From positions 32,709,706 through 32,773,705 of the forward strand of contig NC_045139.1 in NCBI RefSeq assembly GCF_008831285.2: a stretch of 64,000 bases of DNA, written 5' to 3'. A program made the translations under genes and the position numbers. Under the pieces are notes generated by a model. That model was given only the letters and a program-made list of their open reading frames with translations, had not been told where the DNA came from and did no database searches. This document shows positions 1,566-25,567 of this stretch, piece by piece; the stretch's first letter is position 1; every line of letters starts with the position of its first letter. Source of the DNA: Nymphaea colorata. Its lineage: Eukaryota; Streptophyta; Magnoliopsida; Nymphaeales; Nymphaeaceae.

Positions 1566-2198
1566 AAGCATGCATTAATGCAGGCTCTGCCTCCTGTGCT
1601 ACTGTTCGCCGGAGTGCGGGTTTATTGCGTTTACTATAGGAGTGATGTTTCCTGTGGAGAGACCCTCTACGAGGGTTCTGGTATATATTATTAAAAAAAA
1701 AAACATTATAGAGCCGTTTTTAGGTTCAGTCTGGTCTTTGAATTCGACAAGTGTGGCTCTGATTCCACTGTTAGAGCAATTGAAGTGGCAGCAGAAGTTG
1801 CAAGTCGTCGCCTGCGTAGTATGTTTACTAGAGGCTCCACTGGTCAAGTATGGACCCTTGTGGAAAACAGCAAAGCAAGAAGAAGAGGAAGAAGAAGGAG
1901 AAGCTGAGATTTTTATTGGTTTCCCTCTAAGAGGCTTCTCTTGGGCAATCAAGGAAGGATTAAACCCTATAATAGAGAGTTGCTGGCCTTAAATAGGCCT
2001 GCCTCTTAGGTTGGGCTTCGGATTCCGGAGGGTGATGATCGGGAGCGCAGGAATGTCGATAATGCACTTCTCTGCTTCCTTTTTCGTTCATTTTCCACTT
2101 TCCTCATGGTATGGATTAGGTTTTCGACGTCCTCCCTGAAATTCCATGGAAATTTTTTGTTTGGCTTGTTTATTTCAATTATTGGTGTTTTCATTCAG
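1566..2198. other. Unassigned sequence upstream of the NERD exon
   Basis: No recognisable domain. Open frames on both strands (about 117 codons) contain runs of Glu or Ser from a GAAGAAGAGG-type purine tract and look like chance. The last part ends in a pyrimidine-rich stretch and CAG at 2196-2198, the acceptor of the following exon, so at least this end is probably an intron. I could not find the N-terminal exons expected for the NERD protein here. Confidence 0.4.
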
Positions 2199-2313
2199 GA
2201 AAGAAGTGATGGTGATGACGGTTAAGAATTTGCGTGGGTTTGTGGAGGTTGGCAATGATCGTAGCTGGATTTGCAGAGGCAAGGATGGCAGCCGAGAGTG
2301 GCATCCTGATCTG
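2199..2313 (+). pseudogene. NERD-domain protein gene, internal exon (gene broken)
   Basis: The exon encodes KEVMVMTVKNLRGFVEV followed by GNDRSWICRGKDGSREWHPDL. It matches the plant NERD (nuclease-related domain) protein pattern 'VTK.E.VVI.VKN.SGFV....GSWVC......HPDPV'. It is bounded by an acceptor (TTCATTCAG, ends 2198) and a donor (GTAATC at 2314). It begins with the third base of a codon and ends in phase 0, which joins in frame to the exon at 8735. A 5.6-kb copia element sits in the intron between them. Upstream exons for the protein start and downstream exons are not found in the window, so the locus looks like a fragment. Function of plant NERD proteins is poorly defined; the domain is distantly related to restriction-enzyme-like nucleases. 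Identification is from family memory; an unseen 5' part beyond the left edge cannot be excluded. Confidence 0.7.
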
Positions 2314-2425: not shown

Positions 2426-2749
2426 TGTTAGATGTTACACAAATCAACATAGTGATTTCAGGAAGCAGATCAGCAACATCCTGATTTTAGGAAAGGGGAC
2501 TGAGCCTGATTGAGATGTGATCTTGTCTTATCCTGTTGGTGATTTCCTATCTTGCCTTATTTATTATCTTGTTGTATATTTGAGAAAATAGGGAAGATGA
2601 GCATTGAATCATGTATAAATACCTTACGTTGGTAAGGCCTTGATAAATTGAACTGAAATGAAGAATTCCTTCCGTCTTCACTTTCTCTCTTTCTCTCTCT
2701 CCCTCTCTCTCTTTCGTCTTCACACTTTCTCTATTTCTACCATTTAATA
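2426..2749 (+). repeat. 5' LTR of copia element
   Basis: 324 bp, begins TGTTAGATG and ends TTTAATA, so its termini are TG...TA rather than the usual TG...CA. It contains a TATAAATA box near 2613 and a CT-rich tract near the end that is longer than in the 3' LTR. Confidence 0.93.
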
Positions 2750-2767
2750 TGGTATCAGAGCACAGAG
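2750..2767 (+). other. Primer binding site (initiator tRNA-Met type)
   Basis: TGGTATCAGAGC directly follows the 5' LTR. It is complementary to the 3' end of plant initiator tRNA-Met, the usual primer of plant copia elements. Confidence 0.9.
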
Positions 2768-3504
2768 ACTACCACCGTCGCTTCCCCAAGCTGTGAATTC
2801 CTGTAAGTTCTGGCCACGAAGATTGTTCCAACGACTGAAAGAGCATTGATTCTCGTCGTCCATCTCTGCAAAGCTCATATGAGCAGTTTGGACCAAATCC
2901 GAACGAAATTGGGCAAGAATCGGAGGTGACTTGGAAGCTAACGAAGAACAGAGGACTTCCGACAAAGAAACTGCTGCTACGGCACCTATACTTGATATTT
3001 TTTGGCCAGTTGCCCGATTTTTGGGCGATTAATTTTCGTTGAGAAGCAACCAGAAACTGAAAAACAGAGGAGTAAACCGATGACCACGGCGATTCAATCT
3101 TGTGACGCCAGACGCCTTCTGTGACTGCCGATGCTTGGGAGGCGACGGGAGACTATAGAGCCAGGAGCGCAACCGCCTTGCTTCACGTTCCGACTCTAGC
3201 GTAGTGAAGGCAGCCGATTCCTCTCAGGTTGCCGAAAGATGGAAGCTCGTCCGAGAGAGACGGCAGCACCTTCCTCCTCCACGACGTCGAAGTAATCACT
3301 TCAGCATTGACCGTCTGTTCATATGCACTGTTTCCGTTCTCGTTTAAAAATCAGCATTGATGGAGCCATTTGGGAAGCCTTTCTGCCACCATCGCTCAAT
3401 GCCTTGATTCTAGCTCGCTTGTGGTCTTGCCTCGTTGTTTTGCTTAGTTGCTGTTCTCAACCAACAATTATGCTGCTTGCTTGCACCGTTTTACATCATC
3501 ATCT

Positions 3505-4452
3505 ATGGCAGAAACCCAAGGAGCTATTGGGTCCCCTTCAAGATAAAAAACAACTGCCCAAGATGACAATCCGTTTTACCTCCACCATTCTAATAATCTC
3601 GGTGCTTGCCTTGTTTCTCAACTTCTCACTAGCGACAAATATGAAACATGGAGGCGTGCCATGACCATGGCTCTCTTAGCAAAAAATAAGATGGGTTTCA
3701 TCGCCGGTTCCGTACCAAAACCCACATCCCCGACATCTCTCATTATATCTTGGGAAAGATGCAATAATATGGTCCTTTCCTGGCTTCTCAATGCCATTCA
3801 TAAGTCCTTGATGCCAACAGTTGTATATGCCAAAGAAGCTGCTTTCGTTTGGAAGGAGCTACAAATCCGATTCACACAGTCTAATGCTCCTTGCTTGTAT
3901 TAAATTCAGCAGCAAATCATCAACTGCAAACAAGGTCAGTCTCCAATAATCATTTATTATACACGCATCAAAGGTTTATGGGATGAATATGATGCATATG
4001 TTACTCCTTCGGTATGTGATTGTGGAGCAATAAAGAAGATGACTGAGATACAAGAACGTGATAGACTGATTCAGTTGTTGATGGGTTTAAATGAAAGTTA
4101 TGGTCTCATTCGTAGTCAGATACTTCTTATGGAACCAATGTCCGACACCTCCAAGGCTTATGCCTTATTGGTTCAAGAAGAAAGAAAGCGAGAACTTCAT
4201 ATTCCACTTCAGCCTGACTCTATTTCTGCGACAACTGCCATAAAACATCATGATAATACTGTTAGGTCCATGGGACGCCCTCGACACCAATGTGATCACT
4301 GTGGTCAATTAGGCTACACCAAAGCTCGATGTTATCATCTACACGGCTTTCCTAAGAAGAAAAACTTTGGTGATCAACGACAACAGCCACAAGCAAACTC
4401 ATCCACAACTGATATTGCATCTCTCGGCAACCCTACCAAACCACCAGGATAG
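3505..4452 (+). pseudogene. copia gag, broken by stops
   Basis: Frame 1 reads MAETQGAIG..., then a retrotransposon gag domain (YETWRRAMTMALLAKNK, later LNESYGLIRSQILLMEP). It ends with a CCHC-type zinc knuckle CDHCGQLGYTKARC near 4291-4332, in which the expected His is Tyr. In-frame stops occur at 3544 and 3901 and a stop at 4450. Gag would form the virus-like particle. The changed zinc-knuckle His and the stops show decay. Confidence 0.85.
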
Positions 4453-4560
4453 TCAGCTTCTCCTAGTTCAGATCTCTTCCAACAATTTCTAGAGTTCATG
4501 AATTCCAAGACTCCCAAAGTCAATCTCGCAGGTACTACCCTATCACTTGCTTGTCAAACT

Positions 4561-5753
4561 TCTTCCCAAATTTGGATAATCGATTCTGGTGCTACACACC
4601 ATATCACCAATTCATTATAGTCTTATTCATCCATCGCTAGTTAAATCAAATCTGGTCCAGCTTCCTAATGGTTCTTCTACACCCGTCACACATGTCGGTC
4701 AGCTTCACTTAAATCCCTCAATTACTTTGCATAATGTTCTTTGTGTTCTCTCTTTTACTTTTAATCTTATATCAGCACCTAAACTTGTCAATGAAAATCA
4801 ATGTCAAGTTATATTTGACAATGATTCTTGCATCATTCAGGACCAACGTTCGATGAAGATGATTGGGAAGGGTAGGAAGGCAAATGGACTATACGTTTTT
4901 GAGAATGAAGGACCATGTACTGCTGCTGTTTCATCAGACCACCAAAGTCTCTGGCATCGTCGACTTGGTCACCCCTCTTTTTCCCATTTGAAGGCTATTT
5001 TCAATTTTTCTAATTCTGCTTCCAAACATGAACATTGTTCTACATGTTATTTTGCCAAACAAACACGTTTGCCATTGTCGAATAGTTCTATATCAACTTC
5101 TAGCATATTTCAATTGGTTCATTGTGACATATGGGAAGGCTATCAAACACCTTCACTATCAGGCGCCCACTATTTTTTTACTATTGTAGACGATTTTTCC
5201 CGTTGCACCTGGGTTTTTCTTATGCGCCACAAATCGGAAACATGTTTTTACATTGAAAAATTTCATAACCTCGTAGAAAATCAATTTTCTACAACTGTTA
5301 AAAAAAAATCACAGTGATAATGGAACTGAGATCTTTTCCTCCCACATGGAAACCTTGTTGCATAATAAGGGCATAGAGCGTCAACATTCTTGCGTTGCCA
5401 CCCCACAACAAAATGGAGTGGTAGAACGGAAGCACAAAGATTTATTAAATACCGCTCGTGCCATTCGTTTTCAAGCTGACCTTCCTATCAAATTTTGGGG
5501 CGATTGTATCTTATCTGTTGCTTACTTGCTAAACCGGTTGCCCACACAACCTTTACATGGCAAAACCCCTTATGAGGTTCTTTATGAAAAGAAACCCAAG
5601 TATGAACATCTTCGAGTTTTTGGGTATTTATGTTATTCATATAACATTGGCCCAAGTATTGACATCTTCGAGTTTTTTGGTGTTTATGTTATGCATATAA
5701 CATTGGCAAATCTCACAAGTTTGACGCCCGTTCTCGCAAATGCATTTTTATAG
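4561..5753 (+). pseudogene. copia protease and integrase, frameshifted
   Basis: The protease active-site triplet DSG is at 4582-4590 in the motif WIIDSGATHHIT, followed by an in-frame stop at 4618 and a frame change. The integrase zinc-binding part follows (WHRRLGHPSF, then CSTCYFAKQ). The core has HCDIW, an SDNGTE (near 5314) that falls out of frame after a poly-A run, and NGVVERKHK as the third acidic residue. Near its end a 56-bp segment is tandemly duplicated (5595-5650 and 5651-5706), shifting the frame again. Confidence 0.88.
5595..5706 (+). repeat. 56-bp tandem duplication inside integrase
   Basis: The segment starting CCCAAGTATGAACATC at 5595 recurs at 5651 (CCCAAGTATTGACATC) with a few substitutions. 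56 is not a multiple of three, so the duplication disrupts the frame. Confidence 0.9.
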
Positions 5754-5935
5754 GATATCCTTTTGGCCAAAATGCTTATAAATTATATGATCCCAATAGC
5801 CAAGAAATTTTGACAAGTCGAGATGTTAAATTTTTTGAAGACAAATTCCCTTTCCACAATATCAAGGACACCCATAGTGATGTTGTCATACCTCTCCCTA
5901 TTCATGAACCTCTTGAATAGGTCAACCATCCTACC

Positions 5936-7750
5936 TTGCCTACCCAACATCCGAATACATACCATATGTCCACCCAACCAGCCCCTTCCAACACCCGGCC
6001 TGATGTTGCACCACCTGTACGGCGCTCAACCAGGGTACATACACCTCCTTCACACCTCAAGGACTTCCAATGCTACTCCATTCATCCAACTCAATCATCT
6101 GAATTGGCATCGGCATCCACTAAAGGCACCAGGTACCCCATCGCTAACTACCTTCATCTCCAACATTTCTCTCCTAACTACCAAGCCTTCTTCACTTCTC
6201 TTCTCTGTCATTCCGAACCGTCATCCTTCTACGAAGCGATGCAATTTCCAGAGTGGCGTGATGTTATGGATGCTGAAGTTCGTGCACTCAAAGAAAATTC
6301 AACTTGGGACGTCGTTGATTCACCTCCCAACAAACACCCCATTGGATGCAAATGGGTGTATAAACTCAAATACCATGCTGATGGCACCATTGAGCGACAT
6401 AAGACTCGCCTCGTCGCCAAAGGTTATACCCAAACAGAGGGCATCGACTACACAAAGACCTTCTCACTTGTTGCTAAAATCACTACAATTCGATGTCTCT
6501 TGTCTATTGCCGCAATCAAAGGGTGGAGTCTATTCTAAGTTGATGTCAACAATGCATTCTTACATGGTGACCTCTCTGAGGAAGTATACATGACTCTCCC
6601 TCCTGGTTTTACCTGACAGAGGGAGCACAAGGTATGTCGGCTAAAAAAATCATTATATGGGCTCAAACAGTCATCTCGCAATTGGTTCTTCAAACTTTCT
6701 GAAACCTTAATACAACTAGGTTTCACTCAGTCAAAGGGAGACTATTTGTTATTTTCCAACATAACTGTCTATAGCAGTACCTTTATTATCGTCTATGTGG
6801 ATGACATAATAATTGCAGGAGACAATGAAGAGCAAATTACAAATTTGAAGTCCGTCATCAACAGCAAATTTCGGCTAAAAGATTTGGGCACATTAAAATA
6901 TTTTTTGGGTATTGAAGTCGCCCGTTCCAAACAAGGCATATTTTTATCTCAAAGGAAATAGAACATGGATATCCTAAGCGAGGCTGGGTATAGTGGTGCT
7001 AAACCTAGCGACACTCCGATGGAGCAACATTTGAAACTTGATGATGAAGCAAGCCAGCCATTGAAAGACCCCACATTTTACAGAAAATTGATTGGACGGC
7101 TCATTTATCTCACCATCACACGGCCTGACATCTTACACAGCGTCCAATTACTAAGTCAGTTCATGTCGCAACCCAGGAACATGCATCTGGACGCAGCCTT
7201 TGGAATCCTTCGGTACATCAAATCCACGCTAAGCTTTGGTATATTTTTATCTACATCTAGTAAAATTTGTGTCAAAGCTTATTGTGATTCAGATTCGGCT
7301 GCCTGCCCAATGACGCGAAGAACCACTTCAGGCTTTTGCATCTTTATTGGAGAAAATCCAAGATCATGGAAAGTAAAGAAACAAACTACCGTTTCCAGGT
7401 CAACAGCAGAGGCTGAGTACAAGTCAATGGCTCTAACGACAAGCAAGATGATTTGGATAAAATATTTATTAAGAGATCTTGAAATCAAACATCAACAACC
7501 AATGGAATTATATTGTGACAATATGGCAGCACTTCACATATCCGCAAATCCTGTATTTCATGAGAGGACCAAGCATATAAAAATTGATTGCCATGTTATA
7601 AGGGAGAGGATTCAGAATGGAGAACTTCATACCAAGCATGTTGATACTCAAAATCAAGTTGCTGATATTTTCACTAAGGCTTTAGGTAAAGATGCATTCA
7701 TCAAATTAAGAAGCAAGTTAGGCCTCCTAGATCCCGGACCGCCAACTTGA
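5936..7750 (+). pseudogene. copia reverse transcriptase and RNase H, broken
   Basis: Reverse transcriptase starts around 6229 with the typical WDVVDSP....IGCKWVYKLK and RLVAKGYTQTEGIDY. It continues through DVNNAFLHGDL and SLYGLKQS and has the catalytic YVDDIIIAGDN near 6793-6825. RNase H follows with KAYCDSDSA, SRSTAEAEYKSMA, ELYCDNMAA and HIKIDCHVIRERI, ending LLDPGPPT and a stop at 7748-7750. In-frame stops at 6536, 6615 and 6959 break the frame. Confidence 0.92.
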
Positions 7751-7757
7751 GGGGGAG
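7749..7757 (+). other. Polypurine tract
   Basis: GAGGGGGAG directly precedes the 3' LTR, where plus-strand DNA synthesis would prime. Confidence 0.9.
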
Positions 7758-8068
7758 TGTTAGACGTTACACAAATCAACATCGTGATTTCAAGAAGCAG
7801 ATCAGCAACATCGTGATTTCAGGAAAGGGATTGAGCCGGATTGAGATGTGATCTTGTCTTATCATGTTGGTGATTCCCTATCTTGCCTTATTTATCATCT
7901 TGTTGTATATTTGAGAAAATAGGGAAGATGAGCATTGAATCATGTATAAATACCTTACGTTGGTAAGGATTTGATAAATTGAACTGAAATGAAGAATTCC
8001 TTCCGTCTTCACTTTCTCTCCTTCTCTCTCTTTCGTCTTCACACTTTCTCTATTTCTACCATTTAATA
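7758..8068 (+). repeat. 3' LTR of copia element
   Basis: 311 bp, begins TGTTAGACG and ends TTTAATA, followed by the GGTTG target duplicate. It is shorter than the 5' LTR, mainly in the CT-rich tract. Confidence 0.93.
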
Positions 8069-8073
8069 GGTTG

Positions 8074-8734
8074 GTAATTCATAAGATGGCTTTCGTCCAG
8101 TGTTTTCTCTAGCATTGCAGTAGCCTTCCACTGGGACTTTGATCAGAACAAATTTGAGATACTTAGTTGGGGAACTAGTTTCAAGGAAAACATCAAGGGG
8201 AAACGAGATTGAAATTTAACAACTCTCCACCTGATAAAATTTTCTCATTCTCTTGTGGACTTGGAATCTTCAAAGATGAACCCAAAAAGACTTGCCAATA
8301 AAACTTCGTTTAGCAAAATTCTCTGCACTCCGATCTACTTTTTCTTCTGATGGCTTTTGTTCTATAATGTATGCATGGCTATATTCACCAGCAACAGAGG
8401 TAGCAAGTGACAAGCACTTCACCAATTTCAGATGTGTGAATCAGGTGATTGGTGTTCATGTTGAACCATGACTTTGTTATCTAGTCTTTCTTACTCCCAG
8501 AATGTACTGTTTAACCATGGTACAATCTGTGCTTCCTAGGACCTTAGTTCTATATTTTGTTGACCTTAGTCTCTTGAGTGCATTTGTCTTTTAACTGCTG
8601 CTTCCTTGAAGCTTGTTCACTGGTTGCCTATTTTTCCTTTAATCTTGTACCTTTCGTTGTTCTTCCAAGAAAAAACATTTTTGCCTACATGTAGCTATTG
8701 AAGTTGGGATTTCTCATAACATCTTTCTATTTAG
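8074..8734 (+). other. Intron remainder of NERD gene
   Basis: AT-rich non-coding sequence between the copia element and the next NERD exon. It ends in a pyrimidine-rich stretch and TTTAG at 8730-8734. No other feature recognised. Confidence 0.6.
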
Positions 8735-8850
8735 GTAATGGAAATGAGGCAGAAAGTCTCAACACTTGAATCTTACCTGGAAAAAAGAGGTGCTGTTTTG
8801 CCAAGTGGATTTTTGAAAGGCAGAGTGGTGCTTCCTAATCCAAAATGCAA
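8735..8850 (+). pseudogene. NERD-domain protein gene, following exon
   Basis: The exon encodes VMEMRQKVSTLESYLEKRG then AVLPSGFLKGRVVLPNPKCK. It continues in phase 0 from the exon ending at 2313 and matches the plant NERD family pattern 'HPDPV.E...Q...LESYLEQRG..LP.G.....V.LPNPK'. The acceptor ends at 8734 and the donor GTAAGG starts at 8851. From 8784 the exon lies inside the left arm of a long inverted repeat, so an antisense partial copy lies downstream (10017-10083). No further NERD exon is found after the inverted repeat, so the gene appears truncated here. Confidence 0.72.
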
Positions 8851-10083
8851 GTAAGGCCTGAGAATAACTAGCATGTTTCAGTTCTGTAGTTATTTCTTGT
8901 CATAGGTAGTGCCTCGAGTTAAATTGCATCATGTGCTTTCTTGGTTATTACTGTGACACCTCTTTCTGCAAAGGTGAAACCCACTTTGAATGAAAAAAAC
9001 AATTAGAATTTTTTTTTTGGATATTAATATGTGGCAGTTCCATTTCAAGTGTTCTGCCTTGAACGAACTGATATGATCTTGCGTGGAACTGTGTCCATAA
9101 TCATGCTTTGTGATGTGGCACCTAGCTTCTTGTGCGTTGATGCAACCAGAAGTACTTTACTTTTTTTGTTTTTAAAAATTCTTTTCTTCTAGAGAATCAA
9201 CCAAGAAAGAAGACTAAAACAGAAAAGTAGGCCTGGGTAATAAACTGCACACGGCACCACGGTTGGAATCCACTACCAACCACATCCCACATCTAACTTC
9301 CTAGTGGGATTCAAGTTTGAGTGGCTCTACTTCTATTTAAGTGGGAGTGTTCCGAGGTTTTGTGAGCCTGAGGGGATTCTAAGCGAGAGTGACAGAGAGC
9401 AAGGGGTCTGACAGAGAAAAATGAGATTATATACTTACATGAAGATGCCATTTTATCTGTCAGACTCCTTGCTCTCTGTCACTCTCGCTTAGAATCCCCT
9501 CAGGCTCACAAAACCTCGGAACACTCCCACTTAAATAGAAGTAGAGCCACTCAAACTTGAATCCCACTAGGAAGTTAGATGTGGGATGTGGTTGGTAGTG
9601 GATTCCAACCGTGGTGCCGTGTGAAGTTTATTACCCAGGCCTACTTTTCTGTTTTAGTCTTCTTGGTTGATTCTCTAGAAGAAAAGAATTTCTAAAAACA
9701 AAAAAAGTAAAGTACTTCTGGTTGCATCCACACACAAGAAGCTAGGTGCCACATCACAAAGCATGATTATGGACACAGTTCCACGCAAGATCATATCAGT
9801 TCGTTCAAGGCAGAACACTTGAAATGGAACTGCCACATATTAATATCCAAAAAAAAAATTCTAATTATTTTTTTCATTCAAAGTGGGTTTCACCTTTGCA
9901 GAAAGAGGTGTCACAGTAATAACCAAGAAAGCACATGATGCAATTTAACTCGAGGCACTACCTATGACAAGAAATAACTACAGAACTGAAACATGCTAGT
10001 TATTCTCAGGCCTTACTTGCATCTTGGATTAGGAAGCACCACTCTGCCTTTCAAAAATCCACTTGGCAAAACAGCACCTCTTT
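8784..10083. repeat. Long inverted repeat, arms ~630 bp, 42-bp loop
   Basis: The left arm 8784-9414 and right arm 9457-10083 are reverse complements with only scattered mismatches and 1-2-bp indels. The spacer is 9415-9456. The left arm begins within the NERD exon at the GAGGTGCTG codons and includes that exon's donor and downstream intron. The right arm carries the same in antisense. A transcript through it would fold into one very long hairpin. Confidence 0.95.
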
Positions 10084-10200
10084 ACTTACTGTTTCAAAAA
10101 TGCATTTGATCACGCGAATGGTTGTTCCTTACTGTTCCGTTCCGTACAGGCGTTCTTCATTTGATGAGATTAAACCAACCTAAGTTGGTACAGAGTAAGA
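10084..10200. other. Short unique spacer
   Basis: No feature recognised between the inverted repeat and the start of repeat R1a. Confidence 0.5.
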
Positions 10201-12893
10201 CTGCGTTTGATTTGGGGGTAAGCTGCAAGCACCTGAGTACATTTAGATGATATTCGACTTTGGATCTGATACAACCAAAAAATGTCAAAACCCTTCTTTC
10301 TCATCCAGCCATTTGCAACCCTTGGTTGAAGAAGCCCCTGTTTCCTCATTCATTTGTTTTCTTCAAGAAGCATTAGATCCAAGGCCGATCTGGGATCCGT
10401 TCTTAGAAAAATCCATTTCTTAAACGAAGAATGGATTTCAAACTCCTTTACATTGAGAAACAGTTCTGATATGAGATCCACGGTTTCCAAATCTGGATAG
10501 ATATTATATAAGTGATGTATGTACCCTAGCATGCATGCCAGCATAAAAAAAAAAAAAAAAAAAAAAGATCAGTCTATTCTTGAAGGGAAAAGATATTATT
10601 TTATATGCTTGAAGCTCATTACTTCCCTTACAACTTGACATCTTTCTTTCAGAGAAATTTGTTACCTCAAAGCATATTAAAAAATTGCAGACAGAAAATC
10701 TTGCTTTTTGTGTTCCACCTATTTGCAACTGTAGTGGGCGGTATGAGTTGCATGTGGATGTTGATTATGTAAAATGGGAATAAGAACAGATTCCATATCA
10801 CCAAGAATGACTTTAATATATATTTCAGAAATAATGAGCTTCAAGCATTAAAGAAATGCACCTGCGAAGAGGGAGTATGAAGGAGGTAGGAAGAGGAAGA
10901 GAGAATGAGAAGAGAGCAACAAAGAAACATCGGAATAAGAGGTACCCTTATAACATTAGAACTAGCAAGTCATCACAGTTTGCTAGCATCTCACTTTCCT
11001 TGGCTACTCTACTCTTTTGTTCTACTTAAAAAGAATAAGAAACCTACCTGCAATACCCTTGGAAGCTCTCAAAAAACATGAGAAATTAAAAAAAATGAAA
11101 AGAAAGAAAATAGGATATTAACCTCAAGGATCAATAGTGTGAGATTTGATATTTATACTCGCTGTTTAAAATAATCTCTAGATATTTTTCCCTGCTTTGT
11201 TTGCAACTCCAGCTCGACGACCCTTCCTGTTGTTAGCAATCCTATTATTATCTTCATTGGTTTTTATCTTCATAGATGTCATTTCTTTATGGGCTGCAGC
11301 ATTATCTTTAACAATAATGGCCTTCCTGTTCTTGGGAACATCTTATTTCATAATGTTAGATATTTTGCAAGATGCTTTCCATTTTCATTTTCCCTCAATA
11401 CCTGTAAAGACCAAGAGATATTTCAAATGAATTGATTTTGCAACACCAGGTTGATGACTGGCCTTTTTGATAACAATGTCATTATTATTTTTACTAGTGT
11501 CAACAATTTTTAATAATATCACAGTTCCTTTTGCTGTACAAATCTTGTTTGATAATGTTAAATATTTTGCATCACACATTTCATTTTCGTTCTCCATCAA
11601 ATTGAATGACGAGTTAGGAAAGTTGAAGTTTGTGAAGCCGGACCGAGCCTTCACTTTGTTGAAGATGGCAACAGTCGCTTGGTTGTCAAGAGCCTTTCAT
11701 TGAAGCCTAAATGACCATCCTCAGCAAGTATTCTTCATTATTTATCGTTGTTATTTTCCATCCTAACTTGAGCGTTGTGTTAAGATTATGATTAATCTGC
11801 ATTGCATACAACATGTAGGGCTTCTAGTACCTTATTAAAAAAAACACAAAAAATAACAAAAAACAGGAGATTTAACTGCCAAAGTAATCAAGAGAGCCAG
11901 AAAATTTTCTTGTGGTAAATTAAAGATTTTAAATTTTGACAAGTGCCGAATTATCATTTTTCAAATTTTTTTATATATGACAAGTGAAATTTTCTAAAAT
12001 TAGACGTATTTTTTTTTTTAAATTGAGGTGAGGCCATAACCCATGCTTTAAAAATCTGTGAGAATTGGTAATGAGAATTTTTCCTGTTACAAGAAGCTTC
12101 AGATATTTTTCACTATTTTTTTTTCCCATGGCAAGTCGATGACCTTCTTGTTGACAACAATGTGATCATCATTTTTGTTGGCATCTTTACCTCCACAAAG
12201 ACCATGCTCTTATGTGATACAATATTATCTTTAACAATAATAACCTTTTAATGCAAAGATCATGTTCAAATATCACTGCCAATAATAGTTAGTCAAGTCA
12301 CCTTAGGAACCAGTTGAGCTAATTAATTTCTAAGACAGTTTCAAGAATTTGTAAAAATGTCCAAATATCACTGCCAATACTCTTGCTCAAAATATGAAAC
12401 TAGTTAAATCAATCTAGGTTTGGTAAATAGAACTCTAGAAAATTTTCTTTGTATAATATATATATATCTTCTCTTCTCTTCTCTTCTAATAACTAGTAGT
12501 AAGGTATTTTTGCCAAGTGTTGCATAAAACCGACATTTATATACGCTGTTTTGAAAACTTGATTTTGCAGGGCAGATATTTAATCTGAAATTTTAACTGA
12601 AAAGATATGTGCGTCCACGGTGTATAACCAGTTGAATATTAGCAAGGATATTTCGATTACTATTTCACCCTCTGGTTTTCTGTGAATTGCAGAACTTGTC
12701 ATTTAGTACTTTCAGTATTAAAATGCAACTATCTTTTAAAATACAAATGATTTTCGAGCGTGGTAAAATGGGTGAGAATTTTGAGTATGTCTTTTAAATG
12801 TACTCTTTCTCATAAAATTTTGACACCCGTGACCTTATGGTTTAGGCAAATTACTTACATTTATGTTGTAAAAATTCAAATTGTATATAAAAG
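10201..12893 (-). repeat. Dispersed repeat R1, copy a
   Basis: 10201-11814 is the reverse complement of 16051-18776 (R1b, which carries a 1-kb insertion). 10523-12893 is the reverse complement of 23283-25567 (R1c). It has a poly-A run at ~10543-10565 and a short TA/TCTTC microsatellite at ~12455-12487. A 77-codon hydrophobic frame at 11197-11430 is present in R1a and R1c but disrupted in R1b. No transposon protein or clear terminal repeats could be recognised, so the element class is undetermined. Confidence 0.8.
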
Positions 12894-13973
12894 GGTATTC
12901 AAATTGTCTCGTAGAAAATTACGAGTGAAATAGCACAGGGACACAGAAATTAATTATAAAATATTTTTAAAAGTTAACTCATCGTTGTCTGCTCCTTCCT
13001 CCTTTTTTGCCCTTTTTATATACAAAATAAATTATAGATATTTGAAAATATGTAATAATTCAAAAAATGACTAATTTTTTAATCTTCATGTTCGCCAACA
13101 TTGTCTAAGCCTCGTTAAGATCTAATAAGCCTCATAGTCACCAAATTTTAATAATTCTTAATAATTCTAAAGTGTTTCATGCAATCAATCAAGCCAAGAA
13201 CATATCCATATATAAGTTAATTTGGATATCGGATTGTTTAGACCTGAGATCTAAATAGCTTGTGAACTCCAATTATTAATATGTACTTAGAACTCGAAAG
13301 ACTTCTATACAAATCCTCCCATTTGAACGTCAAATTTTTTAGGTAGTTCATTGAGTCTTTTAAAAACGTTTGGGTTATTAGAAATTAATTTGGAACAGTA
13401 TTATATACTGAAATGTGAACTTTATTGTGAATAAGAAACAGATTCGTCGAATGAATCTAAATATATTCAAGTCGTAAGTGATGAATGCATGAAACGATGC
13501 ATTCTAAAGAACACAAGTGATAAAGTGTTCCAGTTTTCAGATGCCATCTTTGGATACAACCCCACAACTTATGGTGGTTCTAATCACTCTATACAATGTG
13601 TAAAGCTTTTCCAGGAAAAAAAAAAAAAACTTGAAATTAAGGGGTCTTTTTTGTATTCTAGGCATCGTCCCAGCCCGACCCAACAAGAGTCAGGCTCACT
13701 GGAAACACAGGTTTGGCCCGCGGCTCGACACTCGAAACCCTAGCGCAAGTTGTTTCAACACCAGACCCAGGCCTGGCCCGGTTAAAACAAAAGTACTTTT
13801 TAAATTATACAATAAAAATTTTTAATATAAAATATATTTTAATAAAAAAATATATATCATTATTAAAATAAAAATAATATCAAAAAAATATATCAGGCCG
13901 ATTGGGGTCTCGTCGAGCTCACTCAAGCCGGTCTTTTAGGGCCAAAAAGGTACCAAAAAACAAGCAAGGAGGG
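12894..13973. other. AT-rich intergenic sequence
   Basis: No coding family recognised. 13660-13790 is locally GC-rich (runs like CAGCCCGACCC, GGCCTGGCCCGG), similar to degenerate plant repeat sequence. 13800-13890 is a TA-rich low-complexity stretch. Confidence 0.5.
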
Positions 13974-14119
13974 GAGAAGGCTGTGGAAGGAGAATAGTGA
14001 GGAGCATATCTCGGGCTTCGGAAGGAGCGGCCAGCTGCGAAGGAAAAACTCTCTGGACTATTTCCGAATTTGAGTGCTTTCTTTTCGTTTTTTTTTTTTT
14101 TTTTGTCCTCTCTCTGCTT
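13974..14119 (+). pseudogene. Fragment of gene X first exon
   Basis: Matches 28388-28535 (candidate first exon of gene X) from GAGAAGGCT through the TTTTTTTTGTC..CTCTCTGCTT stretch. The start codon of gene X is changed to ATA (GAGCATATCTCGGG against GAGCATGTCTCGGG), and ~13 bp of the coding part is missing. It is fused directly to an ESF1 fragment at 14113-14119, where both parents share TCTGCTT. Confidence 0.82.
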
Positions 14120-14512
14120 GCGAGATGCCTGCCTTAAATAAGCAGCACTCCTACAACAGCAACAGCTAGCAATTTTGCAGCTTAAGAGGACGAAGTGTAA
14201 ACGATAATTTCCTATCCCTGTGCAAAGTTAGTCACACTGCACGATCAAAGGTGGGGAAACATGGGTCACCTTAATTCCACGGTATGCTCTGTGTGCACAT
14301 ATGCATGCATGGGCATCTGATAGTACTTGCGTTTATCTGTATGTGCATGTCTGTGTTTGTGTGCATGTGTGAACCATCCTTGTTGAATATGAGAATGTTG
14401 GTCTTCGGGAGAAAGTATATGTCACTTTACGAAACCAGATAATGACTCCATTTCCTTTTATATCGAGGATCTGTTGGGTCTAACGCATAGAGTGGGGAAG
14501 TGAACAAAGCCG
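14113..14512 (-). pseudogene. ESF1 3' gene fragment, truncated
   Basis: Minus strand: piece of the penultimate exon 14455-14512 (ends ..DPRYK), intron 14151-14454 and the start of the last exon 14113-14150 (SAAYLRQ..). The intron donor is GA instead of GT, so the original splice cannot work. The fragment starts inside the exon at the same base (CGGCTTTG) as the other captured copies and breaks off after ~38 bp of the last exon at the gene X junction. The intron holds the GTGTGT/ATGCATGCAT low-complexity tract seen in the parent. Confidence 0.85.
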
Positions 14513-15170
14513 GCACTGCAGCCGAAGCTGCAAGTTTTTACTCAGTCTTGATTTCCATCAATTTCCCTTTTGTTCTTCTAGTGCATGAGGAGATCATTCA
14601 TTACTGCTTTTAAATTCATCCCTTTCCTTCTGGTCTCGCACTGGGGAAAAAACATTAACTTCTGCTTTTCATTAGTTAATGAATAAGAAAGAGGAACCCA
14701 TCTTCTTACAGTTACTTGATACATGCCAATTCTTGGCGTCATCTTGGCAAAGAATTTACCACTGCTCTACGTAGAATTGGTATTTTTGAACTGAAAGAAA
14801 CTTCTTTCCAGATTCTTGGCCGGCCGGGACGTGTTTCGGATCGAAAAGGTGAGCAGCCTCTGGAGAAATGTTCCCGGCTGAAGTCGGGTTGCTGAGGAGG
14901 TGGTTGGGTGGAGGGAGAAATTTTTGGCTATGGGGCGCTGTTGTATAAATTTATATTTTTAAACGGACGCAACATATATAAATAAGTAAATAATTGTAAG
15001 ACATCTATCTAAAAATAAACAAAAATTTTGTTGCTGGTGCCCACGCCAGCCTATATGTAGCTATGCTAGTGAGTTGGATGTCTCAGGCGTTTAGGCAATG
15101 CTGCAACTAAGCATAGCAAAAAAAGAGATTTTGTATATTTCTAAACAATGTACTTGATGTTGTCTCAAGG
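14513..15170. other. Partner sequence of the ESF1 fragment plus unassigned DNA
   Basis: 14513-14935 is the sequence attached to the ESF1 fragment in all captured copies (also 21380-21804 inverted, 38572-39000, 50200-50628) but absent from the ESF1 gene itself. No protein family recognised. 14936-15060 matches 21330-21450 inverted. The remainder is unassigned. Confidence 0.6.
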
Positions 15171-15220
15171 GGTGGCACGATGACTCACACTCAAGGCGGT
15201 TTGGTTTTTGTGGTCAATAT

Positions 15221-15690
15221 CAATACAACGAGCAGAGCCAACTCGGGGCTCGATTTGAACTTACTCAAAAAAGCTCGGCTTGTGCTCGAACTTACTCAAA
15301 AAAGCTTGGCTTGTGCTCGATCAGAGTTTGAACTTACAAAGACACTAAAAATGATAAATGAGTCAAGTTCGAGTTTAAGGAACTCGATTTGTTTATAATA
15401 ACTCTACTCGGAAAGCGGTACTCTATGTGATACTGCCAAAACCGGTCCACTCGATTTGTCAATACAACGAGCAGAGCCAACTCGGGGCTCGACTCGAACT
15501 TACTCAAAAAAGCTCGGCTCGTGCTCGATTTGTTTATAAAGAAGCAGAGTTTGAACTTACAAAGACACTAAAAATGATAAATGAGTCAAGTTCGAGTTTT
15601 AGGAACTCTATTTGTTTATAATAACTCCACTCGCAAACGGTACTCTATGTGATACTGCCAAAACCGGTCCACTCGATTTGTCTTCTGGAT
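15221..15690 (+). repeat. Tandem duplication, period 239 bp
   Basis: The block starting CAATACAACGAGCAGAGCC at 15221 recurs at 15460. Each carries CTCGGGGCTCGA..., an inner CAAAAAAGCT repeat and the ending CACTCGATTTGTC. Substitutions and small indels separate the copies. The CTCGA-rich text resembles that at 17520-17690. Confidence 0.88.
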
Positions 15691-16045
15691 TGACAGCACG
15701 GGCTAACAGCAGATGTAGGGGACATAGCTGGTGAATTTACCGATGGTAGAGCAGCTCCATCAGTATTATAGCCTGATGAAGGCAAAAAAGACTGGTGAAA
15801 AATCAAGGACAGAGAAACCAGGATCCACTAAAAGGAATCAAAACGGGTTGTACTTACAGTTAAACTCCTTCCAACCTAAGACGCCCTTCTCTCTGGTAAA
15901 AACAATCCAATGGCCTGTCGTGAAGTTCTCTGCAGAAGAAACGACCAAGGTATTCGGTGTCAAGCTATACGAATGTTAAGGTAGCATCCCCATACTGTTT
16001 CTATCGGTTGAGTAGTTCCTGATAAATGAAGCAATTTATAGAAAC
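15691..16045 (-). pseudogene. Aspartic protease gene fragment (last two exons)
   Basis: Minus-strand match to exons 9-10 and the introns around them of the APF1-like genes (compare 52980-53340). It includes the exon 9 coding part RIV.......VLGWKEFNC-like at ~15858-15929 and the start of the last exon near 15773. The tail exon lacks its 3' end. The match stops near 16045, just before R1b, within the intron upstream of exon 9. It cannot encode a protease. Confidence 0.85.
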
Positions 16046-16050
16046 TTTAA

Positions 16051-18776
16051 TCCCTACATGTTGTATGCAATGCAGATTAATCATAATCTTAACACAATTC
16101 TCAAGTTAGGATGGAAAATAACAACGACAAATAATGAAGAATACTTGCTGAGGATGATCATTTGGGCTTCAATGAAGGGCGGTAGACAACCAAGCGATTG
16201 TCTTCAACAAAGTGAAGGCTCGGTCCGGCTTCACAAACTTCAACTTTCCTAACTCGTCATTTAGGGGGGCGTTTGATGCATAGGGAAGAATTTAACGTGG
16301 TAAATTTTTTTGAAATTTTTTTCAAAAATACAGGATGAAATGAAATTTGATGGAGAAAATGAAATGTGATATTTAACATTATCAAACAAGATTTGTACAG
16401 CAAAAGGAATTGTGATATTATTAAAAATTGTTGTCGTGACGTATAAGCGAATGATATCTGCAGACACTTGTAAAAAATAATAATGACATTGTTATAAAAA
16501 AGGCCAGTCATCGAGTATAGCAAAAACAAATCATTTGAAATATCTCTTGGTCTTTACAGGTATTGAGGGAGATCAAAATGGAAAGCATCTTGCAAAATAT
16601 CCAACATTATGAAATAGGATGTTCCCAAGAACTGGAAGGTCATTATTATTAAAGATAATGTTGCAGCCCATAAAGAAAAGATATCTAAGAAGATAAAACC
16701 CAATGAGGATAATAATAGGATTGCTAACAACAGGAAGGGTCATCGAGCTGGAGTTGCAAACAAAGCAGGGAAAAATATCTAGAGATTATTTTAAACTGCA
16801 AGTATAAATATCAAATCTCACACCATTGATCCTTGAGGTCAATGGTAGCCTTCAATGGTGAAAAAACACATTAGATCCTATTTTCTTTCTTTTCATTTTT
16901 TTAAATTTCTCATGTTTTTCTAGAGCTTTTAAGGGTATTGCAGGTAGGTTTCTTATTCTTTTTAAGTAGAACAAAAGAGTAGAGTGTTGTTTTTTTAAAG
17001 GGTAAATGCTAGTTCTTATGTTATAATGCTACCTCTTCTTCTTCTGCTGTTTCTCTGTTGCTCCCTTCTCATTCTCTCTTCCTCTCCCTACCTCCTTCTT
17101 CGCACCCCCCTCCTCGTACGTACATTTCTTTAAGGCTTTTCTCTCTGTTTCTCTCTCTTTGGGTCATTTGGATGTATATAAAGTGTTTGTGCATTAGACT
17201 TAATGAGTTAGAGTTTGTTTTTATTTGTAATCGCATTAACTGTGTCATTAATAGATATTATTCTCAAATTCTAACAAATGAAAACATCTTCTTTAAATTC
17301 ATGTTCACCCATTCTTCTAACGTTCCTAATTAGTAAAACTGAAATCTAAAGCATCGACACTGACATATATAGAACTAGGAAGTTAAAGGGACACGGACCC
17401 AAATTGTCCGTCCGTGCAATTGTGGAGCTTCAACATGAAGAAAAAGTGTCACTAATACATTTACTATAACTTATGCTTCTTCGTTGTTAATCCCAAATCC
17501 ATTTAACAATGCCTACACGAGTTAACACTTAAACGAGTTAAATGGGTAAAACGAGTCGAGATCGAACTTGATTTTGTGTAGTCCAGTTGGGCTCGAGCTT
17601 GCTATGCTCGAGTTAGAGTTTTTTTCAGCCAAGTCAAGCTCGAGCTGGCCAAGCTTAGGCTTGACTCGAATCTTGTGCAGCCCTAAATATCATGCTTGAG
17701 TGTGTTTACTTACAAAAGTTTTACTATAGTTGCTCGGGAATACATTTGTGAAACCCGTCAAATTTTAGAAAGGGATTTGACTATATAGAAGTATTATCCC
17801 TCATGAAATTTGATATGTTATAAAACTGTGTCCATCATATATATAGGAGATGTCATGTTTTTCAACCATGAAAACTTATATCACATAATTAGAATCTCGA
17901 CGAAAATAACTGTACAAATTGGACTTTTAAAATACAACCACATAATTTATGCAATTTTGGGAAAAACTCCACTTTTAAATTACATCAAACCTCTAGAAAT
18001 AAGAAATTGGAAAAATATGTTCAATTGTGGAGCCGGTTTGACCTACCGAAAAATTGGTGCAAATTCATAATATAGACGTTATGGCTGAAAATATAAAAAT
18101 TGGAGCAAATTGATAAATATAAATTGTGTCTCTTACATTTCTGAAATATATATTAAAGTCATTCTTGTTGATATGAAATCTGTTCTTATTCCCATTTTAC
18201 ATAATCAACATCCACATGCAACTCCTACCGCCCACTACAGTTGCAAATAAAATAGGTGGAACACAAAAAGCAAGATTTTCTGTCTGCAATTTTTTAATAT
18301 GCTTTGAGGTAAAAAATTTCTCTGAAAGAAGGATGTCAAGTTGTAAGGGAAGTAATGAGCTTCAAGCATATAAAATAATATCTTTTCCCTTCAAGAATAG
18401 ACTGATCCTTTTTTTTTTTTTTTATGCTGGCATGCATGCTAGGGTACATACATCACTTATATAATATCTATCCAGATTTGGAAACCGTGGATCTCATATC
18501 AGAACTGTTTCTCAATGTAAAGGAGTTTGAAATCCATTCTTCGTTTAAGAAATGGATTTTTCTAAGAACGGATCCCAGATCGGCCTTGGATCTAATGCTT
18601 CTTGAAGAAAACAAATGAATGAGGAAACAGGGGCTTCTTCAACCAAGGGTTGCAAATGGCTGGATGAGAAAGAAGGGTTTTGACATTTTTTGGTTGTATC
18701 AGATCCAAAGCCGAATATCATCTAAATGTACTCAGGTGCTTGCAGCTTACCCCCAAATCAAACGCAGTCTTCTTCT
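16051..18776 (+). repeat. Dispersed repeat R1, copy b
   Basis: Reverse-complement copy of 10201-11814 and direct copy of part of 23283-25567. The hydrophobic 77-codon frame of the other copies is disrupted here. About 1 kb (17140-18135) is extra relative to R1a and R1c. Confidence 0.8.
17140..18135. other. ~1 kb insertion within R1b
   Basis: R1a and R1c read directly from the CT-rich tract and GCATTTCTTTAA to the AAATATATATTAAAG block, while R1b has ~1 kb more. The inserted sequence includes a CTCGAG-rich stretch at 17520-17690 typical of degenerate plant repeat DNA. I saw no open reading frame of note and could not define terminal repeats. Confidence 0.6.
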
Positions 18777-19334: not shown

Positions 19335-19950
19335 CAATATACATATGAAAGACGTCACCTTAAAACACTGAAAAAAAAGGCTAACACCTTAAGGACATGA
19401 GAGGAAATGGAGGAGCTTCGGCTTTTAGGTAGATAATAAGATGAAATATTCCTCATGTGTATTTGATGAAGAAATTTTATTGCTTTATTCCACAAACATT
19501 TTAATCAAAAAGTATGTTTCAAACAAACTTAACTTGAGTTTGTGATATTAATTACACATAAAAACAAGGAATATAGGATTTAAATTTCATTTTAGTTTAA
19601 TTTCTTATGTAAATTTTCTTGGTTCAAATACTCTATTAAAGTGAAATGAACCATAAGATAAGTATTTGATTTTTTTTTTCTAATTTCAATGAAAAGAAAT
19701 TTCAGGGATATCACGCAAAAGCCCAGTTAAGTTAATTGACTTCTTCCACAATTTTGTTCGTGATTCTAATATTTGACTAGAGTGAAGTAAATGTATGATA
19801 AATAACCAACATAAAATGGGAATTTAAGTGGACAAATTCTTGTACAACTTCTTGTTACACAAGATAGACAAATTAAGAAGGACTTTCATTTATGACATCC
19901 CAAAATGGGTTCTCTAATATTAATTAAACATGTCAAATTTATACTTCACG
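19335..19950 (+). repeat. Dispersed copy of the ~0.67 kb array unit
   Basis: Matches the units at 1-1565: CATATGAAAGACGTCACC, the AGCTTCGGCTTTTAGGTAG block, and CCCAGTTAAGTTAATTGA. One full rotated unit, well away from the array. Confidence 0.88.
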
Positions 19951-19967: not shown

Positions 19968-21804
19968 TATTTGATTTAGGAACAACATTCATAATGATCT
20001 TATGAGGTTTATTGAAACATAATATGGCGTTCTTCCAATATGTTTTAATTTTAAGAACATATATTTTGAGAAGGACAACATTATTTTGACTAAACATTCT
20101 TTAAGTTGAGTAACTAAGAGTACAGGTCAGGTCTAGACACTTAAAATCTATGTCAGCATCAACCTAATTTAAACGACTAAATTTATTCGTTGGTAGTTAT
20201 ACCATATGAATGATGATAACCTGCATTAAACAGATTTTAGATACCCAAAGCCAATTGCGTTTGACTTCAGGGTGAACGGAGGAGACCTAACCAACATAGA
20301 GCCGAAACTTCCACTAAATCCCTTCTCTCTTTAGAAGTTGTTTGGCAATTGAAACATTATGTGTGCGTTGCATAAATCTACCATAAAAATCTAGGCAGAT
20401 TTATGAAACATGAAAACTAGGTGTCAATGAATTTGTCGCACTTTTGAGTGCAGATTCAAGAAACACTTACAAAGTATTCCATTTGCTAAACGACATCTTA
20501 AGTTATAGGGTCTACTTTTGATACTTCGAGCGCCGCCCTCATGCACTTCAACTTGTGTGTTTAACCCTCTTCAACTGTATTTGATGTGAATTACTTTTAA
20601 GAAAAAAAAAAGATCAAAGGAAAGAAAATGAAAGGTCAAGCAATGAGATTTAACAACTTCCAAAATGTTACGCATCAAGTGACAAGATTTCACAACTTAC
20701 AAAATTTTATGAATTTCAGATGGCAGATTATTTTACCAGTTATGATATATCTCATTTAATTATTAGGTATGTAAATATGCGTGCAGTGAAGATGTCCAGT
20801 GATATGTTCTGACTAGATTTTGAAAACTTTTCGCTTGATCTGAATTAGATACACTCACAACCAATTGAAATTTGAGTTTAATATCAGACTGAAATCGGAT
20901 ACAGATTTGGCCCGATTACATATTGGTTTTTGGAAAAGTAACCTCTGGGCCTAAATCTAAATCCAAATCCAGTTAAAGTAAATGCAATTAATTGAATTTA
21001 ATAAAATCTGGAAACGACTCAACCATTTTAATCTTTTTTTTTTCATTTTAATGTTTACGTAAGAGATCATCTACTACTTAAAACATTCAATTGACTTGTT
21101 TTGGGGTTTGAGGAACCTATAGTACATCAATTTGGCGTTTATTGTTTGCAGTTCAGAAAAATAACACATTAAGTCATGATATTGACTACGAAAGTGTGAG
21201 TTGCACCAAGCCCCTTAAGACAACATGAGCTATTCTGTTCCAAACTATACAAAATCTTTCTTTGCTCTTCTTAGTTGTGGCATTGCCTAAAGGGTTGAGA
21301 TAACCTCAAGATGCTCCACCTCAATATCGGAGCTACATATAGGTTGGCGTGTGCACCAGCAACAAAACTTGTTTATTTTATATAGATGTCTTACAATTAT
21401 ATTACTTATTGATATATGTTGTGTCCCTTTAGAAATAAAAATTTATACAACAGATCCCCATTCCCAAAAATTTCTCGCTTCCGAGACTCGTCCCAGCCGG
21501 ACAAGAATCTGAAAAGAAGTTTCTTTCAGTTCAAAATGCTAATTCTACGTAGAGCAAGTGGGAAATTCTTTTCCAAGATGACGCCGAGAATTGGCATGTA
21601 TAAACCAACTGTAAGAAGATGGGTTTCTCTTTCTTATTCATTAACAAATGAAAGCAGAAGTAAATGTTTTTTCCCAATGCGAGACCAGAAGGGAAGGGAT
21701 GAATTTAAAAGCAGTAATGAATGATCTCCTCATGCACTCGAAGAACAAAAGGGAAATTAATGGAAATCTAGACTGAGTAAAAACTTGCAGCTTCGGCTGC
21801 AGTG
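19968..21804 (-). other. Inverted copy of the flank linked to the ESF1 fragment
   Basis: 19968-20550 is the reverse complement of 39000-39562 and 50628-51203. About 20555-21300 is additional and resembles, in inverse, the DNA at 29.75-30.25 kb downstream of a protease copy. 21380-21804 is the inverted partner sequence adjoining the ESF1 fragment. No coding family recognised. Confidence 0.65.
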
Positions 21805-22361
21805 CCGGCTTTGTTCACTTCCCCACTCTATGCGTTAGACCCAACAGATCCTCGATATAAAAGGAAATGGAGTCATTATCTGGTTTCGTAAAGTGACATA
21901 TACTTTCTCCCGAAGACCAACATTTTTATATTAAGGATGGTTCACACATGCACACAAACACACACATGCACATATAGATAGACACAAGCACTATCAGATG
22001 CCCGTGCATGCATATGTGCACACAGAGCATACCGTGGAATTAAGGTGACCCATGTTTCCCCACCTTTGATCGTGCAGTGTGACTAACTTTGCACAGGGAT
22101 AAAGTAGAAAAGGGAAATTATCGTTTACACTTCGTCCTCTTAAGCTGCAAAATTGCTGGCTGTTGCTGTTGCAGGAGTGCTGCTTATTTACTCGCAAGCA
22201 GAAGGGCATCGTTGATGAGGTGCCAGAGGAAGCAGAGCAGCCGGGGAGGAAAGATGATGATAAGCAAGAGATTAAGAAAGAGAAAGTTGAACTCATGTCA
22301 CTGGTCAAGTGCCTGAAAAGGAAGGTCGGTTCTATGCCCAACTCAAGCGACTGCAAGTTGA
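21805..22361 (+). pseudogene. ESF1 3' gene fragment, inverted copy
   Basis: Plus strand: penultimate-exon piece 21805-21863 (SALFTSPLYALDPTDPRYK), intron with mutated donor (GA for GT), last exon from 22175. A 10-bp deletion after SAAYL shifts the frame, further bases are missing in the PERKNVEKPDDEQE region, and a 4-bp deletion removes the normal stop after SMPNSN. It is the most decayed of the near-full 3' fragments. The 3' flank to 22913 also matches the other copies. Confidence 0.88.
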
Positions 22362-22913
22362 CTTGTAAGATGGATCTGGTGCGCCCGCTTCTCACAAAGC
22401 TTATACTGCAAACTGAGAGGAGATACAAACTACAAAGTTCTAGCGGCTAATGTTCAAGGTTAATCACTTCAAGTTTTTAACATATTTTTTTTCTGCAATG
22501 GTGCTAATCCTTTTTGTAGAAATTAAACATATCTAAGATATTATTTTTCCAGGGATAAGTCTGAAAATAATTTTCAAGATGTTATACTCATGTTAACCAA
22601 AGATGCCGCTTCCTTCGCACCACTAGAATTTTGTAAATGTGACGTGCATGAGCAGCCATGAGTCCCTGTCAGCCATCTATCTGGAATTTCCATGTTCATG
22701 GGCTTCTCTAAAAGCCATTTTTATTCTGTTAGTTTGACTGTTTCTAGAGGGAAGTCATACTCTTACATTGGTTACCTCTGTAAAAGCACGTTTCAAACAA
22801 AGTTTTACCATAACAAAAATTCCTATAATCCAGTTTGCTCCCTTGTATGAATCATTTATTTCACCATTTATAAGAAAGACAGATACAAAAGAAGTTAGTT
22901 AACAACCTGTGAT
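22362..22913 (+). other. ESF1-fragment 3' flank, inverted copy
   Basis: Reverse complement of about 37320-38000 with indels, including the former 3' untranslated sequence. It breaks abruptly at 22913 into protease intron sequence. Confidence 0.75.
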
Positions 22914-23163: not shown

Positions 23164-23282
23164 TTAATTTCTGAATCCCTGCTGTGCTATTGCATTCGTA
23201 TTTTTCTACGAGATCGATGAATCATTGTTCATTACTCGACAATGACCACAAGAAACGAACGAAATGACCCAAATACCCTTGT

Positions 23283-23492
23283 ACACACAATTTGAATTTT
23301 TACAACATAAATGTAAGTGAATTGTCTAAACCATAAGGTCACGGGTGTCAAAATTTTATGAGAAAGAGTACATTTAAAAGACATACTCAAAATTCTCACC
23401 CATTTTACCACGCTCGAAAATCATTTGTATTTTAAAAGATAATTGCATTTTAATACTGAAAGTACTAAATGACAAGTAACTACTAGAAGAGA

Positions 23493-23572
<80 letters not shown>

Positions 23573-25567
23573 CTAGAGTTCTATTTACCAAACCTAGATT
23601 GACTTAACTAGTTTCATATTCTGAGCAAGAGTATTGGCAGTGATATTTGGACATTTTTACAAATTCTTGGAACTGTTTTAGAATTTAATTTGCTCAATTG
23701 GTTGCTAAATCTTATGAATGACCACGCCCTCTCATGATGCCCTGCCTAATGGTACACAACTCCGCCCACAAAAAAATGTGGGCATTATGCAAAGTATTTA
23801 ATGTTATTGAACATGATCTTTGCATTAAAAGGTTATTATTATTGTTAAAGACAATATTGTATCACATAAGAGCATCGACTTGCCATGGAAAAAAAAAATA
23901 GTGAAAAATATCAGAAGCTTCAGAAATTCTCATTACAGTTCTCACACTTTGGACTTTTAAGGTCAATGGTGGGTTCCCTTTGGGTGGATGGGCTATGGCC
24001 TCACCTCAATTTTAAAAAAAAATACGTCTAAATTTTAGAAAATTTCACTTGTCATATATAAAAAAATTTGAAAAATGATATTTCGACACATGTCAAAATT
24101 TAGAAACTTTAATTTACCATGAGAAAATTTTCTGGCTCTCTTAATTCCCTTGGCAGTTAAATCTCCTGCTTTTTGTTATTTTTTGTGTTTTTTTTAATAA
24201 GGTACTAGAAAAGGAAAAATCCCAACATGTTGTATGCAATGCAGATTAATCATAATCTTAACACAACGCTCAAGTTGTGATGGAAAATAACAACGATAAA
24301 TAATGAGGAATACTCGTTGAGGATGATCATTTAGGCTTCAATGAAAGGCTCTTGACAACCAAGCGATTGTTGCCATCTTCAACAAAGTGAAGGCTCGGTC
24401 CCGCTTCACAAACTTCAACTTTCCTAACTCGTCATTCAATTTGATGGAGAACGAAAATGAAATGTGTGATGCAAAATATTTAACATTATCAAACAAGATT
24501 TGTACACCAAAAGGAATTGTGATATTATTAAAAATTGTTGTTGTGACGTATAAGCGAATGATATCTCCAGACACTAGTAAAAATAATAATGACATTGTTA
24601 TAAAAAAGGCCAGTCATCAACCTGGTGTTGCAAAATCAATTCATTTGAAATATCTCTTGGTCTTTACAGGTATTGAGGGAAAATGAAAATGGAAAGCATC
24701 TTGCAAAATATCTAACATTACGAAATAAGATGTTCCCAAGAACAGGAAGGCCATTATTGTTAAAGATAATGCTGCAGCCCATAAAGAAATGACATCTATG
24801 AAGATAAAAACCAATGAAGATAATAATAGGATTGCTAACAACAGGAAGGGTCGTCGAGATGGAGTTGCAAACAAAGCAGGGAAAAATATCTAGAGATTAT
24901 TTTAAACAGCGAGTATAAATATCAAATCCCACACTATTGATCCTTGAGGTTAATGGTAGCCTTCCATGGTGAAAAAATACATTAATATCCTACTTTCTTT
25001 CTTTTCATTTTTTTTAATTTCTCATGTTTTTTGAGAGCTTCCAAGGGTATTGCAGGTAAGTTTCTTATTCTTTTTAAGTAGAACAAAAGAGTAGAGTAGC
25101 CAATGAAAGTGAGGTGCTAGCAAACTGTGATGACTTGCTAGTTCTAATGTTATAAGGGTACCTCTTATTCCGATGTTTCTTTGTTGCTCTCTTCTCATTC
25201 TCTCTTCCTCTTCCTACCTCCTTCTTCATACCCCCTCTTCGCAGGTGCATTTCTTTAATGCTTGAAGCTCATTATTTCCTAAATATATATTAAAGTCATT
25301 CTTGCTGATATGGAATCTGTTCTTATTCCCATTTTACATAATCGACATCCACATGCAACTCCTACCGCCCACTACAGTTGCAAATAGGTGGAACACAAAA
25401 GGCAAGATTTTCTGTCTGCAATTTTTTAATATGCTTTTAGGTAACAAATTTCTCTGAAAGAATGATGTCAAGTTGTAAGGGAAATAATGAGCTTCAAGCA
25501 TATAAAATAATATATTTTCCCTTCAAGAATAGACTGATCTTTTTTTCTTATGCTGGCATGCATGCTA
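23283..25567 (+). repeat. Dispersed repeat R1, copy c
   Basis: Reverse complement of 10523-12893 over most of its length. It contains a long AT microsatellite (23494-23570) where R1a has only a short one. It ends near 25567 just after GGCATGCATGCTAGG, where the next inverted repeat starts. Confidence 0.8.
23494..23570. repeat. (AT)n microsatellite, about 77 bp
   Basis: Uninterrupted alternating AT. The equivalent site in R1a (about 12455-12473) is far shorter. Confidence 0.97.

Follow-up and report, generated by a model that had tools for sequence, protein, structure and literature searches.

The window analysed here is a stretch of 64,000 nucleotides of Nymphaea colorata DNA. Toward its left end it contains what appears, from sequence comparison, to be a truncated NERD-like gene, a Ty1/copia element in one of the introns of this gene, and a long inverted repeat that begins inside the exon following that intron (Table 1). 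The copia element and the NERD-like exons by themselves point to a plant source. The gene pieces were located with a single plant NERD protein used as a tblastn probe against the whole window. On the plus strand the probe matches three pieces in the expected order (2010-2072, 2182-2379, and 8735-8851), and a further piece of 22 residues is matched on the minus strand within the right arm of the repeat (10081-10016, E 0.002). Exons 3 and 4 join in phase into a continuous reading of 76 residues, which spans positions 48-110 of the 111 in the NERD profile.

Table 1. Coordinates of the features at the hairpin locus, numbered from the first letter of the window
Feature	Position	Strand	Remark
NERD-like upstream piece (VGLRIP...)	2010-2072	+	match to the NERD probe; end looks degenerate
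Exon 3 (NERD-like, preceding)	2199-2313	+	AG/GT borders; splices in phase to 8735
5-bp target duplication GGTTG	2421-2425 and 8069-8073		both sides of the copia element
Decayed Ty1/copia element	2426-8068	+	in the intron between exons 3 and 4
Copia LTRs	2426-2749 and 7758-8068	+	from pairwise comparison
TATA-like word TATAAATA	7945-7952	+	in the 3' LTR, 839 bp upstream of the left arm
Exon 4 (NERD-like)	8735-8850	+	AG at 8733-8734, GT donor at 8851-8852; 8784-8850 within the left arm
Left arm of the inverted repeat	8784-9420	+	637 nt; continuous with the exon at its left
Hairpin loop	9421-9450		30 nt
Right arm of the inverted repeat	9451-10083	-	633 nt; inverted copy of the left arm

According to Pfam, the best match of the joined peptide is NERD (PF08378) with an E-value of 0.0008, but its score of 20.3 bits stays under the gathering score of 22.1. 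The NERD label given by the first-pass annotation is kept as the best-matching family, though not as an assignment above the cut-off. Membership in the NERD family seems likely, not proven, and the fragment is called NERD-like here, without being counted as a member. Pfam finds no match to NERD in exon 4 alone. The same applies to the unspliced frames of 1-2700 (three frames per strand) and 8600-8860 (three plus frames), both searched at E up to 1, and to those of 8069-17000 (three frames per strand, E up to 0.1). As for a later NERD exon downstream on the plus strand, none is recognised, the best tblastn match there having E 3.1 with the one probe used, which a diverged later exon could escape. 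The C-terminal part of the probe finds its best match on the minus strand at 36712-36617 (E 0.086), and this match was judged to be a chance one after reading its translation. A PDB search by sequence returns E 0.27 at best. Pattern searches for relatives of the peptide in viral contigs and in bacterial and archaeal contigs produced 10 and 133 matches, respectively, with none confirmed in either collection; neither is meant to hold plants, so that the result carries no information on paralogues.

The copia element between exons 3 and 4 is decayed, judging by the 38, 71, and 88 stops found between its LTRs in the three forward frames. Among the three open stretches sent to Pfam, the one at 4580-5317 has GAG-pre-integrase as its best match (E 6e-13), and the other two have no match at E 0.01. 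The LTRs differ from each other at 12 of 311 ungapped positions. The word TATAAATA at 7945 in the 3' LTR is the nearest promoter-like word noted toward the hairpin and, being a consensus word only, represents a candidate promoter reading in that direction. An AATAAA at 8297, between this word and the left arm, could end readout transcripts from the LTR. A second copia-like fragment lies on the minus strand at 40834-42361, with matches to RVT_2 (E 4.8e-29) and Pol_BBD (E 1.6e-9).

The inverted repeat itself occupies 8784-10083, with arms of ~630 bp that are identical at 625 of 633 ungapped positions, exactly where the first-pass annotation had placed it. The annotation was also right that the left arm begins inside an exon (8735-8850) and takes in its donor (GT at 8851-8852), and that the right arm is the reverse complement of the left. 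The copy is near-exact: the arms are told apart by a single 4-nt gap and by 8 substitutions, of which 5 are transitions and 3 are transversions. The loop, given there as 42 bp, measures 30 bases (9421-9450). Between the differences the perfect runs reach 157 bases, and 474 of the 617 21-mers of the left arm are identical in the right arm. In a blastn comparison of the window with itself the hairpin scores 2159 bits, whereas the best inverted match anywhere in the window after shuffling is 53.6 bits (50 dinucleotide-preserving shuffles). Only 67 of the 637 left-arm bases are exonic (8784-8850), the other 570 being non-exonic. The right arm holds only the 3' part of exon 4, so that its minus-strand reading opens with the last 67 nt of the exon; the arm ends at 10083, with different sequence beyond. 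No Rfam family matches the window at the gathering threshold.

Chimeric long reads can yield short-loop palindromes, and an assembly or read artefact in the form of a fold-back chimeric read would produce such a shape. The 8 substitutions and the 4-base gap, however, include no homopolymer differences: the gap lies outside a homopolymer, and homopolymer runs are equal in both arms. The differences therefore look like divergence and not like read error. Other sequence also continues past 10083, and an artefact appears highly improbable. With its long terminal inverted repeats and short loop, the structure might alternatively be a DNA transposon of Foldback type or a MITE-like element. The boundary of the left arm, however, falls inside an exon that extends further left, no target duplication was seen at the outer ends 8784 and 10083 when the junctions were compared by eye, and blastn at E 1e-5 found no other copy of the hairpin within the 64-kb window. 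A transposon of this kind is hardly credible, and both it and the artefact are disfavoured.

Regarding the age of the hairpin, divergence is lower between its arms (K about 0.013, 8/633) than between the copia LTRs (K about 0.040, 12/311), with Fisher p 0.014 for the substitution counts. The hairpin is thus probably the younger event of the two, a relative dating that holds if rates were equal and the arms underwent no gene conversion, and that rests on 12 versus 8 substitutions. Of the two arms, the left one is probably the original, since the exon continues at its left, whereas other sequence follows the right arm at 10083. From this arrangement we infer, as the simplest reading, that a local rearrangement copied 637 bp of the truncated NERD-like gene back to back over a 30-bp loop, the copied piece taking in the last 67 bp of exon 4 and the beginning of the intron after it, and that the probable route was fold-back or template-switch repair. 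The analogy with fold-back inverted duplications in human is a loose one: those described in PMC3907307 have spacers of 766-70,466 bp, far longer than the 30 bp of the present hairpin. Overall, the sequence argues for a real inverted duplication of a gene fragment, and for a rather young one.

Another part of the window contains a second palindrome with arms at 25583-26045 and 26062-26517, which has 443 of 455 ungapped positions identical and a 16-bp loop. Its right arm is overlapped by an inverted duplication of 26311-26974 and 27350-28009 (622 of 658 positions identical, 375-bp spacer). No Pfam match above the cut-off is found in 25500-28100. These two mutually overlapping inverted duplications (25583-26517 and 26311-28009) suggest that the region is prone to such events.

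If the hairpin were transcribed, its RNA would be expected to fold back almost completely. The predicted fold of 8784-10083 pairs over the whole length except for a few mismatches, at -1179.2 kcal/mol for the native sequence alone, and with its nearly uninterrupted stem it agrees with the earlier expectation of a near-perfect double-stranded RNA of ~630 bp. The locus thus has the long inverted repeat that endogenous inverted-repeat siRNA loci need, with arms that can pair into a near-perfect duplex. The premise of that expectation, transcription of the NERD locus through the hairpin, cannot be taken for granted: the locus looks truncated and carries a copia element in the intron before exon 4. 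Because of this element and because no NERD exon is recognisable downstream on the plus strand in the window, ordinary NERD transcription cannot be assumed. Transcripts might instead read out of the copia 3' LTR, for example, or start at an antisense promoter. In either case a duplex of ~630 bp would result, from which Dicer-like enzymes could cut siRNAs of 21-24 nt without an RNA-dependent RNA polymerase. In Arabidopsis, endoIR-siRNAs are reported to come from very long stem-loops without RDR, in DCL4-dependent 21-nt, DCL2-dependent 22-nt, and DCL3-dependent 24-nt forms (PMC4687873). The best explanation of the locus, to which we give about an even chance, is a fold-back copy of a NERD-like fragment that would act as a putative dsRNA/siRNA locus if transcribed.

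The same structure may also be an inert young fold-back duplication in a dead gene relic, untranscribed, functionless, and due to be lost by deletion. This possibility is a substantial one, rated somewhat short of even. It is consistent with the broken locus beside a copia element full of stops in its forward frames, with the failure to recognise a downstream NERD exon, and with the wealth of inverted and direct duplications in the window, where such events look common; nothing direct counts against it.

For a transcribed fold-back copy, the likeliest effect would be that the hairpin itself and any identical intron sequence become methylated and silenced, and the hairpin is a possible candidate for an endogenous-inverted-repeat siRNA locus acting mainly on itself. 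About a tenth of the arm could supply siRNAs directed against spliced NERD mRNA, because only 67 of its 637 bases are exonic. For the non-exonic part, intron-bearing RNA and DNA would be the only targets, and an intact paralogue could be silenced only if it closely matched the 67-bp exon piece or the intron.

A trans-acting role, in which arm-derived siRNAs control intact NERD paralogues and the hairpin is an incipient MIRNA or PAI-like locus, is unlikely on these grounds, though not without precedent. The 67 bp of coding exon are present in both orientations. In Arabidopsis Ws, the PAI1-PAI4 inverted repeat is described as triggering methylation of unlinked PAI2 and PAI3 (PMC3203196), and the inverted repeats of a response regulator in poplar are proposed to act likewise (PMC7465354). 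The 570 non-exonic bases of the arm, however, speak against such a role, and so does the window, which contains no paralogue: none of the 1512 distinct arm 21-mers, both strands counted, occurs elsewhere in the 64 kb. For an inverted pseudogene pair in rice, siRNAs from the duplex are reported, with none detected from the parental gene (PMC2708354), which calls for caution in assuming silencing in trans. The probability of the trans-acting role overlaps with that of the transcribed fold-back copy, to which it adds one step. More demanding still is a scenario in which the copia LTR in the gene intron drives the younger fold-back copy, giving a retrotransposon-powered RNAi hairpin that silences intact NERD-family paralogues as an incipient MIRNA or PAI-like locus; this we consider very improbable.

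Comparable loci have already been published, with small RNAs according to the reports on Arabidopsis and rice, and as a proposal in the report on poplar. The Arabidopsis loci IR71 and IR2039 share with the present hairpin a very long stem-loop in which double-stranded RNA could form without an RNA-dependent polymerase (PMC4687873), and the inverted pseudogene pairs of rice share adjacent inverted copies and a predicted duplex (PMC2708354). Precursor RNAs are reported for both Arabidopsis loci, with siRNAs from IR71, and small RNAs are mapped to the rice example, whose duplex measures 185 nt and whose loop measures 1,283 nt. The present hairpin, in contrast, is a predicted fold with a stem of ~630 bp and a loop of 30 nt, and it differs from IR71 and IR2039, as they are described, in containing a fragment of a gene exon.

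Arabidopsis PAI1-PAI4 is also an inverted repeat of gene sequence. It consists, however, of two genes arranged tail to tail, with PAI1 giving the enzyme, whereas here only a 67-bp piece of exon, together with intron sequence, is repeated; the PAI repeat is described as transcribed from a heterologous upstream promoter, with the unlinked copies methylated (PMC3203196). The partial inverted repeats of a response regulator in the sex-determining region of poplar likewise consist of truncated gene fragments, for which small RNAs are proposed. Five arms there are more than 90% identical to a known intact gene (PMC7465354), whereas for the present hairpin no intact counterpart was seen within the window. 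The inverted-duplication model of MIRNA origin likewise takes as its raw material a gene or pseudogene that has been duplicated in inverted orientation (PMC3237417). Among the literature matches listed, one of which deals with archaea, none mentions a plant NERD-domain inverted repeat in its title or in the start of its abstract.

New MIRNA genes and epigenetic silencing of the PAI type are both proposed to arise from young inverted duplications of gene fragments. The nearly identical arms, together with a neighbouring retrotransposon that can be dated, would help to time an early stage of this process if the hairpin is expressed. As it stands, it adds one more candidate to a published class.

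The window also holds many longer-range direct and inverted duplications. At its left end, 1-1580 is taken up by tandem repeats with units of about 670-690 bp, which lie upstream of the gene relic and have a further copy at 19341-19947. Three partial copies of another segment lie at 10197-12899, 16049-18771, and 23272-25569, the first being inverted relative to the other two and having its edge 113 bp right of the hairpin. A third segment is present in copies that partly overlap in extent (14113-14935, 21211-22833, 37517-38997, 49145-50625, and 60304-61332), and the stretches 37129-39563 and 48757-51191 are 99.9% identical to each other. On the minus strand, the open stretch 61268-62029 carries a NUC153 domain at its end according to Pfam (E 4.6e-8), and the segment copy near 14.5 kb has a sub-cut-off match to the same domain (E 0.001). 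The repeated segment bearing NUC153 presumably resembles the rRNA-processing factor ESF1.
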